Source of the DNA: an uncultured Lachnospiraceae bacterium
Lineage (GTDB): Bacteria; Bacillota; Clostridia; Lachnospirales; Lachnospiraceae
DNA length: 57,189 nucleotides
Reading direction: 5' to 3'
NCBI GenBank assembly: GCA_900316165.1
Contig: ONBW01000012.1
Span: 1-57,189 of the forward strand
Part shown: positions 22,086-55,958 of the stretch, piece by piece
How positions within the stretch are numbered: the stretch's first letter is position 1
Layout: each line of letters opens with the position of its first letter
Position numbers and translations under genes: made by a program
The notes under the pieces: generated by a model
Database searches by the model: none
What the model saw: the letters and a program-made list of their open reading frames with translations, nothing else
What the model was told of the DNA's origin: nothing

Positions 22086-22502
22086 ATGAGTGCATACCCA
22101 GAGGTTTATCTGGATGATGTAGTTGAAAATCAGGGAAAGCTTTTTGATATGATCGCGCAGGACTATCCTGATAAAGATACAAAGGCTTTCATTAATTCTT
22201 ACATGCAGAGCAAAACCAGAAAAAGTATTGATGAAGGTCAGGCATATGTAAATACAATGGATGCCTCTGATCTCTGGAGATATTTTTCTGAAACAGAGAA
22301 TTATAGACTGAAGGATGGTTCAGCTATGCTTGGATTTGTGCCAGACTGGATTGGAGAATTTTATGCATATTACCAGTGGTACTATAACCTGCCTAGTGCT
22401 GTCCTTGCAAAAAAAATACCGGTTGATTTTTTAATAAAAGCATATCCGGGGCTTCATGACCTCGACTTGGAGCTGGCTGTTAAAAAAGTCGGTGAGGTCT
22501 GA
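22086..22502 (+). CDS. Small acidic protein of unknown function
   Basis: 138 residues, no signal peptide or membrane helix, rich in acidic and aromatic residues (WRYFSETENYR, WIGEFYAYYQWYYNLPS). The start ATG at 22086 has AGAGGTGA about 8 nt upstream; an earlier in-frame ATG at 22065 lacks such a site. The protein looks intact, but I cannot assign a domain. It is boxed in by two gene fragments: the copy A fragment upstream, and the 3' end of an ogt-type gene that begins at its stop codon. It may be a stable remnant of a mobile gene cluster. Confidence 0.65.
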   Translation: MSAYPEVYLDDVVENQGKLFDMIAQDYPDKDTKAFINSYMQSKTRKSIDEGQAYVNTMDASDLWRYFSETENYRLKDGSAMLGFVPDWIGEFYAYYQWYYNLPSAVLAKKIPVDFLIKAYPGLHDLDLELAVKKVGEV

Positions 22503-22617
22503 AGGTGGCCTGTCCGGCAATTTTGCATTTGGAGAAGGTGTCCAGGAAAGACTTCTTCTAGCAGACGGGATTGAAGTGAAAGACGGGAAGGTCGATTTGT
22601 CTAAGTATGGTATATAA
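22501..22617 (+). pseudogene. Orphan 3' end of an ogt-type methyltransferase gene
   Basis: Reads EGGLSGNFAFGEGVQERLLL then ADGIEVKDGKVDLSKYGI and stops at 22615-22617. It matches the C-terminus of the intact YjbR-MGMT fusion at 24661-25329 almost residue for residue, and its DNA is nearly identical over about 110 bp. The catalytic part is missing, so it cannot work. Unlike the intact gene it ends directly after KYG-Ile, which probably shows the ancestral end of the protein. It starts exactly at the stop codon of the upstream gene, a recombination-type join. Confidence 0.85.
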
Positions 22618-24660: not shown

Positions 24661-25329
24661 TTGAAGACCAGAAAAGAAGCTTTGGATTTCGGGCTGTCAT
24701 TCCCGAATACATATAAAGATACACCATTTAAAGAGACCAACTGGCAGCTTGTAAGAGTTAAAGAAAGCAAAAAGGCCTTCTTATGGACATATGAGAAGGA
24801 TGGATTAATAAATCTGAACGTCAAGGTTGATCCGGATTCCAGGGATTTATGGAGACAGGTATATCCTTCAGTGATTCCTGCGTATCATCAGAATAAGGAC
24901 CACTGGAACACCATAATTCTCGACGGCTCTATCCCTGATGATGAGATTAAAAATATGATAGCGCTTAGCTATTACTTAGTTACTGACTCTCCGACCAAAA
25001 GGATTTATGAGGCCGTAAAAAAAATACCTAAAGGCCATGTCGCTACCTATGCTCAGGTGGCTGCGATGGCTGGCAATCCGAGGATGTCGCGAGCAGTTGG
25101 CAATGCACTTCATAGAAATCCAGATCCTGATCACATCCCGTGTTTTCGTGTCGTAAACTCGAAAGGTGGTCTGTCTGGAAATTTTGCATTCGGAGAAGGA
25201 GTGCAGGAAAGACTTCTCCAAGCAGACGGGATTGAAGTGAAAGACGGGAAAGTTGATTTGTCTAAGTATGGGATGAAATCAGCGTGCAAAAATCCTTCTG
25301 AAGCAGAACCTCACAAATGGGCCGATTAA
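24661..25329 (+). CDS. YjbR (MmcQ-like) domain fused to an O6-alkylguanine-DNA alkyltransferase-like domain
   Basis: 222 residues. Residues 1-105 are a YjbR/MmcQ domain (ALDFGLSFPNTYKDTPF, WQLVRVKESKKAFLWTYEKD). Residues 110-204 are an MGMT DNA-binding/active-site domain (RIYEAVKKIPKGHVATYAQVA, RAVGNALHRNP). The active site reads IPCFRVV: Cys161 is kept, but the usual histidine after it is Phe162. The start is probably the TTG at 24661, with AGGAG 5 nt upstream and the normal family beginning (KTRKEALDFG); ATG 24622 has no ribosome site. The last 18 residues (MKSACKNPSEAEPHKWAD) are read from the 3' end of the opposing gene and look like a lost stop codon. Confidence 0.82.
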   Translation: MKTRKEALDFGLSFPNTYKDTPFKETNWQLVRVKESKKAFLWTYEKDGLINLNVKVDPDSRDLWRQVYPSVIPAYHQNKDHWNTIILDGSIPDDEIKNMIALSYYLVTDSPTKRIYEAVKKIPKGHVATYAQVAAMAGNPRMSRAVGNALHRNPDPDHIPCFRVVNSKGGLSGNFAFGEGVQERLLQADGIEVKDGKVDLSKYGMKSACKNPSEAEPHKWAD

Positions 25330-39334: not shown

Positions 39335-39426
39335 AAAAAAAAGGACTGTGAGAAATCTCACAGTCCTAAAAGAGGGGGAGTATGAAAAACGAAAACAATT
39401 TCCATCAAAGGTATTTCCCTTTGACA
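39335..39426 (-). ncRNA. Candidate C-rich small RNA, copy 1
   Basis: On the minus strand a TATATT -10 box (39433-39438) lies 8 nt before a hairpin TCAAAGG/CCTTTGA (39405-39424, 6-nt loop). Then comes an unpaired 37-nt segment (39367-39403) with the core CATACTCCCCCTCTTTTA. A perfect 10-bp GGACTGTGAG/CTCACAGTCC terminator stem with an AAAT-type loop (39343-39366) and eight Us (39335-39342) close it. The 37-nt segment is identical in copy 2 at 55777-55813. The C-rich core is complementary to Shine-Dalgarno sequences. It may be made from its own promoter or also by processing of the glycosyltransferase transcript, whose terminator it also is. Confidence 0.75.
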
Positions 39427-39507
39427 ATTATTAATATACTCTCCGTCTGTGAAAAAATTGTGGACGTTCTTTTAAAAATTTATATAGAATAGACCATTTT
39501 TTATAAA

Positions 39508-40977
39508 CTACACCGTCATCCTAAGGAACTGGTCCACTCTCGCGTCCCAGGTGTGATTTTTCAGTGCGTTCTGATACCCATTCCATGCTATATGCAGGAG
39601 TCTGTCCTTATCAGAAAGCAGTGCTTTAATCCTCGCCGGAAAATCTGCAATACCATGCTCAGTCGGATCAAACAGAATAATATCTTCACCGTCTGTGTAA
39701 TTCTCCCGCAGATACTCAGTGCTGTCTGAGACGACAAGTGAACCGTGCAGCTGTGGCTCAGCTATCCTCTCAGTAAATCCCGCCTTATGCCAGCTCATAA
39801 CATTAAGAGAAATCCAGGATTTGTCATAAATCTCCTTTGCCTGCTGGTACGGAATATTATCGTGAACCCGAAAACCAGGGAAATCACCCAAATCCTTCCA
39901 TCCTTCGCCAAACACATGAAAGTCGAAACCCGATTTCGCCAGTTCATTTACAACACGTTTTCTTACATCCTTCGAAGCATTTTTCTCCATACCTGCCCAT
40001 TCATAGAAGAGCTTTGCGAAGTCCTGACTGCTTAGCTGTCCGTCGTCATTCAGATGCATATCATCAAGTGCCCTGGCAAATGCCTTATCACTCGGCTCAT
40101 CAGAATGCTCCATCAGCTCACGGGAATAGTTATAAACCAAAGGAAAGATTTCCTGGTTATGCTCACGGGTGTAGTCGATATTCTCCTTGAGGCCAACACC
40201 AGAAGTGCCTAAAAACGAGATATCCATCGTATTCCCGTTCATTTTTGCCGCTCTAAACTCGTCAAAGTCCCTCCAGGCTTTTGATGGACCTTCACCACCT
40301 GGTGGAAAGAAAAGAGCTCTCCTGCACAGAAACCGCTTCGAATACTCCACATAATACTTATCGAGAGTCAGGATAATCAGATCATCTGGAGTATTATGTA
40401 TAGTATCATAAAACCCGGCAGGATGGTCGAATGACCAGAAATACCGAGGAGCACTGACTTCACCCAGCAGATATGAGCCGTCCTGAACCCTCATAGCCAT
40501 CAGCGGATCCTGAAGTCCGAAAATACCCCTGTAGGAATTGCCATGAAACCGCTTTTCATACACCTGCGGTATCTGAGTGCGTTCCTGGAACACCACTTTG
40601 TATCCGGCTCTCTCGAAGGCCTCGCCAAGCTTCCTCGCGAAATCCTCCAGAACCCCGAAACAGATATTATCCCCTGTAAAAAATAAATACGGCGAAGCCT
40701 TCTGCACAAAGCGCTGGTAATCAGCATCATGAGTCAGCATTTTCTTAAGGAAAGGCATCCGTCCAGCGATATCTGACCCGAGGGCAGCAAGGACAGCCTC
40801 GTCAAAAAGGCCTGCTGCCGAAAGCTCCTCCTGAAGCCAGGCGACAAGAAAACAGTCAGTTTTCCAAGGCAGTTCTTTACCGCCATATTTTAAATCATTC
40901 CTTAACTGAGAAACACCGGCCGCTTTCTCATCAGAAAGGGCCAGTGTCTCTATAATCTCATCAACCTTTGTTGCCAT
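39508..40977 (-). CDS. CgeB-like glycosyltransferase
   Basis: 489 residues. The C-terminal ~200 residues are a GT-B type nucleotide-sugar domain ([55 protein letters not shown]), as in the CgeB/spore-maturation-type glycosyltransferases. The N-terminal half has no clear motif. The target is unknown; protein or surface glycosylation is a guess. The start is the ATG at 40975-40977, inside the last codons of secA (17-bp overlap), so it is translationally coupled to secA. A longer frame to 41130 would lie wholly inside secA and is not real. Confidence 0.8.
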
Positions 40978-54285: not shown

Positions 54286-54359
54286 ATTTTCAAGACAACC
54301 CATCAATGCGAAGGTATTTTTTCCACTTCGCAAATATTTTAGCAAAGGGGGTTTTCGCC

Positions 54360-54896
54360 ATGAGAATCAATATCACAGGAAAAAACATTGAGCTGACAGA
54401 GGGCCTCAAGACCGCTGTCACAGACAAGCTTTCAAAGCTTGACAAGTACTTTGCCGATGACACCATCGCAAATGTTACTCTCTCGGTTGAAAAGGACAGA
54501 CAGAAGATTGAGGTTACTATCCCTATGAAGGGATCGATCATCAGATCTGAGCAGGTATCAAACGATATGTATGTATCTATCGACCTGGTCGAGGAAGTTA
54601 TCGAGAGACAGTTGCAGAAATACCGTCATAAACTGATCACGAAGCAGCAGGAGCCTGGCGAGTTCTTCCAGGACGACTACATCGATGATGACAGCGATGA
54701 CGATGACTCTTCACAGATCAAGATCCAGCGTACGAAGCATTTCGGCATCAAGCCTATGTATCCAGAGGACGCCTGCGTTCAGATGGAGCTCTTAGGTCAT
54801 GACTTCTTCGTATTCAGAAACGCTGAGACAGACGAGGTAAATGTCGTTTATAAGCGCCGCGGTAATACCTACGGCCTTATCGAGCCTGAGTTCTGA
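54360..54896 (+). CDS. hpf: Ribosome hibernation promoting factor, long form
   Basis: 178 residues. The N-terminal domain (INITGKNIELTEGLKTAVTDKLSKLDKYF) binds the ribosome between the subunits, and the C-terminal domain (KHFGIKPMYPEDACVQMELLGHDFFVFRNAETDEVNVVYKRRGNTYGLIEP) dimerises and forms 100S ribosomes. An acidic linker (DDYIDDDSDDDDSS) joins them. The start is set by AAGGGGG about 9 nt upstream, an unusually G-rich site. It has its own promoter. Confidence 0.95.
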   Translation: MRINITGKNIELTEGLKTAVTDKLSKLDKYFADDTIANVTLSVEKDRQKIEVTIPMKGSIIRSEQVSNDMYVSIDLVEEVIERQLQKYRHKLITKQQEPGEFFQDDYIDDDSDDDDSSQIKIQRTKHFGIKPMYPEDACVQMELLGHDFFVFRNAETDEVNVVYKRRGNTYGLIEPEF

Positions 54897-55744: not shown

Positions 55745-55840
55745 AAAAAAGGAGGACCGCCTCGCGGCGGCCCTTGTAAAAGAGGGGGAGTATGAAAAAC
55801 GAAAACAATTTCCGTCTCAAAGGATTTATTTCCTTTGATG
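55745..55840 (-). ncRNA. Candidate C-rich small RNA, copy 2
   Basis: Same build as copy 1. A TAATAT -10 box (55847-55852) lies 8 nt before a hairpin with the same arms TCAAAGG/CCTTTGA (55817-55838) but a different 8-nt loop. The 37-nt segment at 55777-55813 is identical to copy 1. A different terminator stem (55754-55773, G/C rich, TCGC-type loop) is followed by UCC and six Us (55745-55750). The one imperfect stem pair (55756/55771) is G-U in minus-strand RNA but A-C in plus-strand RNA, which supports the minus strand. It lies between plsC and the SDR gene, antisense to both. Confidence 0.75.
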
Positions 55841-55958
55841 CTATATATATTACAGGGGGATTGTGATTTATTTGTGAACGAGAAATGAAACGTTTATTAA
55901 GTAAACCGTTTCCACAATCTTAAATCACGATATTAAAATAATCTCAGGAGGTCCTTTA

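Follow-up and report, generated by a model that had tools for sequence, protein, structure and literature searches.

The window, the 57,189-nucleotide stretch of DNA analyzed here, carries on its minus strand two members of a multi-copy small-RNA (sRNA) family of a Lachnospiraceae genus. It is likely that these genes have their own promoters with direct repeats, probably driven by an OmpR-family regulator, and that their RNAs block translation initiation in the manner of the Cia-dependent small RNAs (csRNAs) of streptococci. The earlier note on this DNA had described two copies of a C-rich sRNA. That observation is correct, and the family is wider than described: 38 such genes occur in 10 of the 13 genomes of the genus, comprising 19 close and 9 divergent copies (class A) and 10 copies of a sister class (class B). 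The note had left the promoter repeats unmentioned, and the sister class, like the wider sharing of the promoter, is found only beyond the window. All 38 share the sequence UUUUCAUACUCYCCC, which is complementary to a Shine–Dalgarno (SD) site, a start codon and a Lys codon. The observation goes beyond chance, because the units recur in other genomes with hairpin covariation.

In the proposed mechanism, each sibling would have its own promoter, with direct repeats of the TTCACA-N5-TTCACA type at the position of the −35 box, a placement that would match the layout of OmpR-family-activated promoters. The resulting RNA of ~90 nt would run from a 5′ hairpin through a mostly open UUUUUCAUACUCCCCCUCUUUU stretch to a terminator. 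The open stretch would pair with the SD site, the start codon and the first codons of several mRNAs, so that ribosome binding to these mRNAs would be blocked. If this is true, the family can serve to probe how Lachnospiraceae control gene expression after transcription: its core is defined, its hairpin covaries, and the regulator of its shared promoter can be looked for.

Architecture of the two genes in the window

The elements reported for copy 1, namely a −10 element, an 8-nt gap, a 5′ hairpin, a 37-nt segment and an eight-T terminator, are all present in the minus-strand reading (Table 1), and the terminator was recovered in a separate analysis as well. The identical 37-nt segment does recur 16.4 kb away in copy 2, and a repeat finder returns a direct repeat of 40 nt between the two copies, with one difference and a spacing of 16,410. 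Copy 1 folds at −31.6 kcal/mol (z −5.4; 0 of 200 shuffles equally good) and copy 2 at −29.9 kcal/mol (z −2.9; 2 of 200). The segment had been described as unpaired throughout, which does not hold: its 5′ part can form a weak hairpin in the minimum-energy fold, leaving the AUACUCCCCCUCUUUU end as the open part. When 3 mismatches are allowed, a 30-nt core has two matches in the window's own genome, both inside the window, and its reversed control has none. Elsewhere in the window, positions 22502-22613 and 25163-25274 form a 112-nt direct repeat, 90% identical and 2.66 kb apart.

Table 1. Positions of the sRNA genes, their elements and a candidate target site in the window
Feature	Position	Strand	Remark
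sRNA gene copy 1	39335..39426	-	start placed from the −10 element; ~92 nt
Copy 1 promoter direct repeat TCCACA-N5-TTCACA	39448..39464	-	half-sites 11 bp apart
Copy 1 −10 element TATATT	39433..39438	-	
Copy 1 5′ hairpin TCAAAGG..CCTTTGA	39405..39424	-	covarying across copies
Copy 1 37-nt core	39367..39403	-	with anti-SD/anti-AUG motif UUUUUCAUACUCCCCCUCUUUU
Copy 1 intrinsic terminator	39335..39366	-	stem-loop and eight Ts, ending at 39335
sRNA gene copy 2	55745..55840	-	between plsC-like and fabG-like genes
Copy 2 promoter half-sites TTCATT-N5-TTCACA-N5-ATCACA	55862..55889	-	
Copy 2 −10 element TAATAT	55847..55852	-	
Copy 2 5′ hairpin	55817..55838	-	related to the copy 1 hairpin
Copy 2 37-nt core	55777..55813	-	identical to the copy 1 core
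Copy 2 terminator	55745..55776	-	stem sequence unlike that of copy 1
hpf ribosome site AAAGGGGG	54344..54351	+	candidate target only; hpf gene 54360-54896

Spread and classes within the genus

A 31-nt core pattern (up to 3 mismatches) is found in 7 of 145 genomes including the window's own, all of them from its genus, and the reversed pattern in none. A covariance model of hairpin and core, R1, was built from 19 copies and run on the 13 genus genomes. It recovers the 19 close copies at 72–91 bits in 7 genomes and adds 9 divergent copies at 34–42 bits in 3 further genomes, three of them in G005; a covariance search from the copies, suggested earlier as a check, thereby places 28 class A copies in 10 of the 13. 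The close copies (n = 19, 7 of 13 genomes) have 28 invariant nucleotides. Divergent copies keep the hairpin, CAUACUCCCCC / UUUUCAUACUCCCCCUC, the terminator and the promoter, and differ in the linker. Class B, found through weak R1 matches, has other hairpins, UUUUUCAUACUCUCCCCUUU, a different terminator and the same promoter, and numbers 10 copies in 6 of 13 genomes.

These class counts leave out other weak R1 matches (E 0.048 and above, belonging to neither class A nor class B). Matches that looked coding or unlike the family were dropped: G004:C23, G005:C20 and G001:C3, which are one conserved sequence, and G000:C111, C37 and C23, G001:C2 and G005:C21. The three genus genomes without any copy (G003, G006, G008) are drafts, 80–82% complete. 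The window's own genome has at least four siblings, the two class A copies in the window and two class B copies elsewhere.

The core is constant although the copies occupy different genomic places. The arrangement hpf-plsC-sRNA-fabG is found in seven genomes (G000, G002, G007, G009, G010, G011, G012), and secA-glycosyltransferase-sRNA-hydrolase in two (G000, G012); the remaining class A loci tested (at least 6 kb) showed neither. Neighbor names come from Pfam and NCBIfam, and the gene near copy 1 is one that we take to be secA. At one locus, L149 (G010:C112), an sRNA of class B and one of class A (4620 and 4761) lie ~140 bp apart in convergent transcription.

Hairpin covariation and the case for an RNA gene

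Among all 28 class A copies, 93.8% of hairpin cells are paired, and four of eight pairs have changed on both sides. In an alignment that was fitted to the structure and that includes L043, a class A copy fitting the hairpin poorly, covariation reaches 20 cells against 6.0 in shuffles, with a score of 0.295 versus 0.146 (0 of 500 shuffles), while slid controls give 0–1 cells. The count of pair types in this test is not above the shuffles (8 versus 8.0).

In complement, the core reads as a complete SD-spacer-ATG, and the plus strand could be read as coding a short peptide, MKNENNF..., behind a strong SD (AGAGGGGGAGT ATG), with the terminator-like hairpins incidental. MKNENNF is readable in 17 of the 18 distinct close copies. 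Right past the core, however, the frame diverges: it runs to 6 to 42 aa in 17 of the 18, and the remaining one has no stop within reach. Of this peptide, the 9 divergent and 10 class B copies have only MK in common, and they stop after 5–29 codons. Hairpin covariation, the U-run and the promoter repeats are, moreover, all minus-strand features, and a peptide gene is highly improbable. The earlier note had named plus-strand translation of homologues as one point where the sRNA reading could fail. In the copies the opposite-strand frame is not kept beyond the core, and plus-strand coding was rejected on that ground. There is somewhat more, but still little, to be said for the view that the RNA is no gene of its own and belongs to an upstream operon (secA-glycosyltransferase at copy 1), either as its terminator or as a fragment processed from its 3′ UTR. 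Copy 1 closely follows a minus-strand gene ending at 39508 and could terminate it; copy 2, however, stands on the strand opposite to both of its neighbors, plsC-like and fabG-like, and the promoter repeats upstream of 38 of 38 copies argue against a UTR fragment. Independent minus-strand sRNA genes are the preferred reading.

Promoter pattern and candidate regulators

CACA-N7-CACA occurs within 110 nt upstream of the motif in all 38 copies, and the second half-site is TCACA in 33 of them. A stricter pattern, CACA-N6-TCACA-N9-TANNNT, has 47 places in 12 of the 13 genus genomes, and its reversed form has none. These sRNA genes account for 33 places. Five precede an HlyD-like (MacAB-type) efflux adaptor gene (G000, G002, G007, G009, G012), four share one string that is coding where read (at places other than G009:C59) and whose product is presumably EF-Tu-like, and four are others. 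The adaptor gene is followed by an ABC ATPase and a MacB-like permease in G000, G007, G009 and G012, with G002 read at its start only; the domains of the operon were assigned for G000. The sRNA genes thus share their promoter pattern with a MacAB-type efflux operon. The remaining one of the 47 places, G010:C7, has a promoter that resembles that of macA, and the 158 bases from there to the end of the locus show no adaptor gene.

Three individual places carry the pattern or a relative of it. In the window's own genome, the MacAB-type operon has the sRNA promoter pattern at G000:C43:8176-8205 (L095). At G012:C19:13680-13709 (L136), in G012 only, the pattern lies just upstream of a gene that we assume to be chain-length-determinant-like. 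TCACA-N6-TCACA at G000:C54:28834-28864 (L082), upstream of a presumably alcohol-dehydrogenase-like gene, could be a site of the Rex type.

Four half-sites at 11-bp steps, TTAATA, TTCATA, TTCACA and TTCACA, emerge from 29 of 37 distinct promoters, on which the position table rests, as the pattern missed the other 8. Tandem half-sites at 11-bp steps that end near the −10 element, as seen in these promoters, are a feature of OmpR-family-activated promoters; CiaR, which belongs to the OmpR family, is known to have tandem promoter repeats of this kind (PMC3091779). By this analogy, the sRNA set is probably driven by an OmpR-family response regulator.

Seven OmpR-type regulators are encoded in the window's own genome. 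When 95 of the 98 domain hits are grouped at 55% identity, three groups, L161, L163 and L164, turn up in all 10 sRNA-bearing genomes, and all three are represented among those seven; the best model for L161 is YycF, at a score under the model cut-off. The L165 group, whose recognition helix looks CiaR-like by eye, is present in 9 of 10 sRNA-bearing genomes and in 0 of the 3 others, and is missing from G012, which has four sRNAs. A PhoB-type group, L162, is found in 7 of 10 sRNA-bearing genomes. The promoter repeats were found in 0 of 95 regions upstream of regulator genes, and a motif scan, which would miss the L163 type, found no regulator beside the sRNAs; where an OmpR-type domain shares a contig with an sRNA, the two are more than 11 kb apart at the closest. 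CssR may also be considered as the regulator of the promoter repeats.

Predicted pairing with translation starts and candidate targets

The core complement, AAAAGAGGGGGAGUAUGAAAAA, gives an SD site, a start codon and Lys codons in order. Over 336 starts sampled by our own start calling, the core pairs at a mean of −15.10 kcal/mol versus −14.73 for 30 shuffled cores, with −16.27 for the best shuffled core and −13.67 for the reversed core. The genome-wide sign of an anti-initiation design is therefore not clear over these 336 starts, core pairing being hardly above that of shuffled cores. The motif has 81 complementary sites when up to 3 mismatches are allowed, and the reversed control has 81 as well. 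From 77 non-sRNA complementary sites, 20 were inspected, of which two look like gene starts (L293 and L302, weak leads whose products we take to be ABC transporters). The best single start is G000:C48:112133, on the minus strand of L326 (−32.1 kcal/mol, SD AAAGGGGGAG). The macA gene was set aside as a target, with ordinary pairing energies that would rank 103–169 if set among the 336.

The earlier note had proposed a trans-acting regulator of translation with hpf as one candidate target. The conserved anti-SD and anti-start-codon part fits such a regulator, and the near-shuffled pairing over the 336 starts speaks against it. For hpf, the G-rich site AAAGGGGGTTTTC is identical in seven of seven genomes (the window's and six relatives), which counts in its favor, although this may be SD conservation alone; GGGGG occurs at 6 of the 336 sampled starts. 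Pairing at the hpf start reaches −19.4 kcal/mol and ranks 30 of 336, which leaves hpf a plausible target with the standing of a candidate.

Two alternatives concern the regulator and the mode of action. The repeats could be Pho boxes, and the sRNAs part of a phosphate regulon under PhoB/PhoP. The four half-sites agree with the PhoP consensus of Bacillus, TT[ACT]A[CT]A. Against this, the pst- or phoB-linked sites in L162, L281 and L282 (seven loci scanned) have the sequence TTTACA or TTAACA; a further match in L281 is TTAATA..TTAATA, and the only TTCATA..TTCACA match (L282) lies inside a kinase-like coding frame. The PhoB type of the window's own genome is also absent from three of the ten sRNA-bearing genomes, two of which have another PhoB-like regulator by eye, and PstS was not found in these three. 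The differing sites and the missing PhoB type disfavor PhoB as general regulator, and the phosphate reading is unlikely. Slightly less probable again is that the RNA acts through protein or ribosome binding rather than mRNA pairing. The core of the close copies (28 nt, 19 copies) is more invariant than loose pairing requires, and the near-shuffled mean pairing counts in the same direction; divergent genomes, however, keep CAUACUCCCCC, the anti-start part, while losing the remainder of the core. Pairing of the RNA with translation starts is retained as the likely mode of action.

Occurrence outside the genus

When the genome collection was scanned for exact 20-mer matches, 79 stretches with 80 matches came up. 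Few non-genus matches have promoter-like repeats or a good terminator by eye (L210, L233, L202, L257, L207, L229), and further rows flagged by the terminator script were judged unconvincing by eye. The Lachnospiraceae genome RUG13495 has two copies (L210, L233), while L202, L257 and L207 are single ones. Neobacillus piezotolerans has one locus (L229); its repeats read TTCATA-N5-TTCATT, and it is crossed by no open frame of more than 60 codons. R1 scores these six at 16.6–25.9 bits, against chance matches of up to 11.7; four of them match over 21–30 nt only, so that the match is mostly the searched motif itself. The Neobacillus genome has one more place at 3 mismatches, within a coding frame, and the Neobacillus case may thus be a coincidence.

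A family-wide pattern search found 52 places in 41 of 397 genomes, including the window's genus, versus 5 in the reversed control. The 30 non-genus loci inspected were mostly coding-looking or unrelated, and among rows L217-L226 only L224, a genus copy, fits. L181, from another genus, has an R1 score of 34.8 bits and looks like a family member; L184 does so less surely. The latter (G351:C47), also from another genus, has two C-rich motifs 225 nt apart, perhaps tandem sRNAs. L180 (G316:C6:103452), in a genome placed in another genus, has the same sequence as the G002 copy L016 throughout the stretch compared, which may reflect transfer or contamination.

Comparison with known systems

No Rfam family reaches its gathering score in the window, in keeping with the earlier description of the family as apparently new, and the weak matches differ between the copies. 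The top weak match to copy 1 is Bacillus ncr1241 (RF02451, 27.4 bits versus 60), which is not among the matches listed for copy 2. In the open-licence literature, no described counterpart in Lachnospiraceae was found. RsaE/RoxS, in which C-rich open segments pair with SD sites, had been offered as an example. It is not the best comparison, because neither window copy has a cmscan match to it up to E 10 and because csRNAs and LhrC are closer in design.

Like the csRNAs (RF02379), the present genes occur as several siblings per genome at scattered loci, combine a stem-loop, a linker with anti-SD and CAU, and a terminator, and have promoters of their own, where 11-bp direct repeats precede the −10 element. 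Two stem-loops and an anti-SD/anti-AUG linker are present in the window copies as folded and in the others by sequence. According to PMC3091779, csRNAs have anti-SD and anti-AUG sequences in unpaired regions, 2–6 genes per genome and direct-repeat promoters, and blocking of initiation by such pairing is their proposed mechanism. Their action on comC was tested by compensatory mutations (PMC4507080). The differences are equally clear. The repeats here have the consensus TTCACA-N5-TTCACA, whereas the CiaR repeats of csRNAs read NTTAAG-N5-TTTAAG; the first eight positions of the csRNA nonamer [A/C]UCCUAAA[A/C] are absent in 38 of 38 copies; and the csRNA model scores 21.9 (copy 1) and 16.4 bits (copy 2) versus a gathering score of 57. 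Identity with csRNAs was rejected, since repeats, nonamer and Rfam score all fail. CiaRH is reported as apparently absent outside streptococci (PMC3091779).

Listeria LhrC1-5 (RF00616) is likewise multicopy, and is two-component controlled. One LhrC pairing site is CUCCC in the terminator loop (PMC4132741). A parallel here is a class B subtype (L056, L059, L061 and L062) whose terminator loop contains CUCUCCCCC / CUCUCCCCCUAA, which may be a second anti-SD site comparable to that of LhrC. In contrast, the LhrC model gives copy 1 only 20.1 bits versus a gathering score of 110 and copy 2 no match among those listed, and LhrC is under LisRK, with a responsive element upstream of −53.

By analogy, then, the sRNA set would function like csRNAs and LhrC, yet it is without the tested identity features of each. 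A bolder and more doubtful reading is a complete sibling-sRNA regulon in Lachnospiraceae, apart from Cia and Lis, in which one regulator, acting through four TTCACA-type half-sites, would drive two anti-initiation RNA classes and a MacAB-type efflux pump. The scattered relatives, two copies in another Lachnospiraceae genome and one locus in Neobacillus, could then point to a module that is old and Bacillota-wide, with csRNAs and LhrC as its sister or parallel versions. If the family works as proposed, the csRNA/LhrC design of many siblings, one switch and an anti-start motif would exist outside Bacilli, which bears on whether this design is of convergent or ancient origin.
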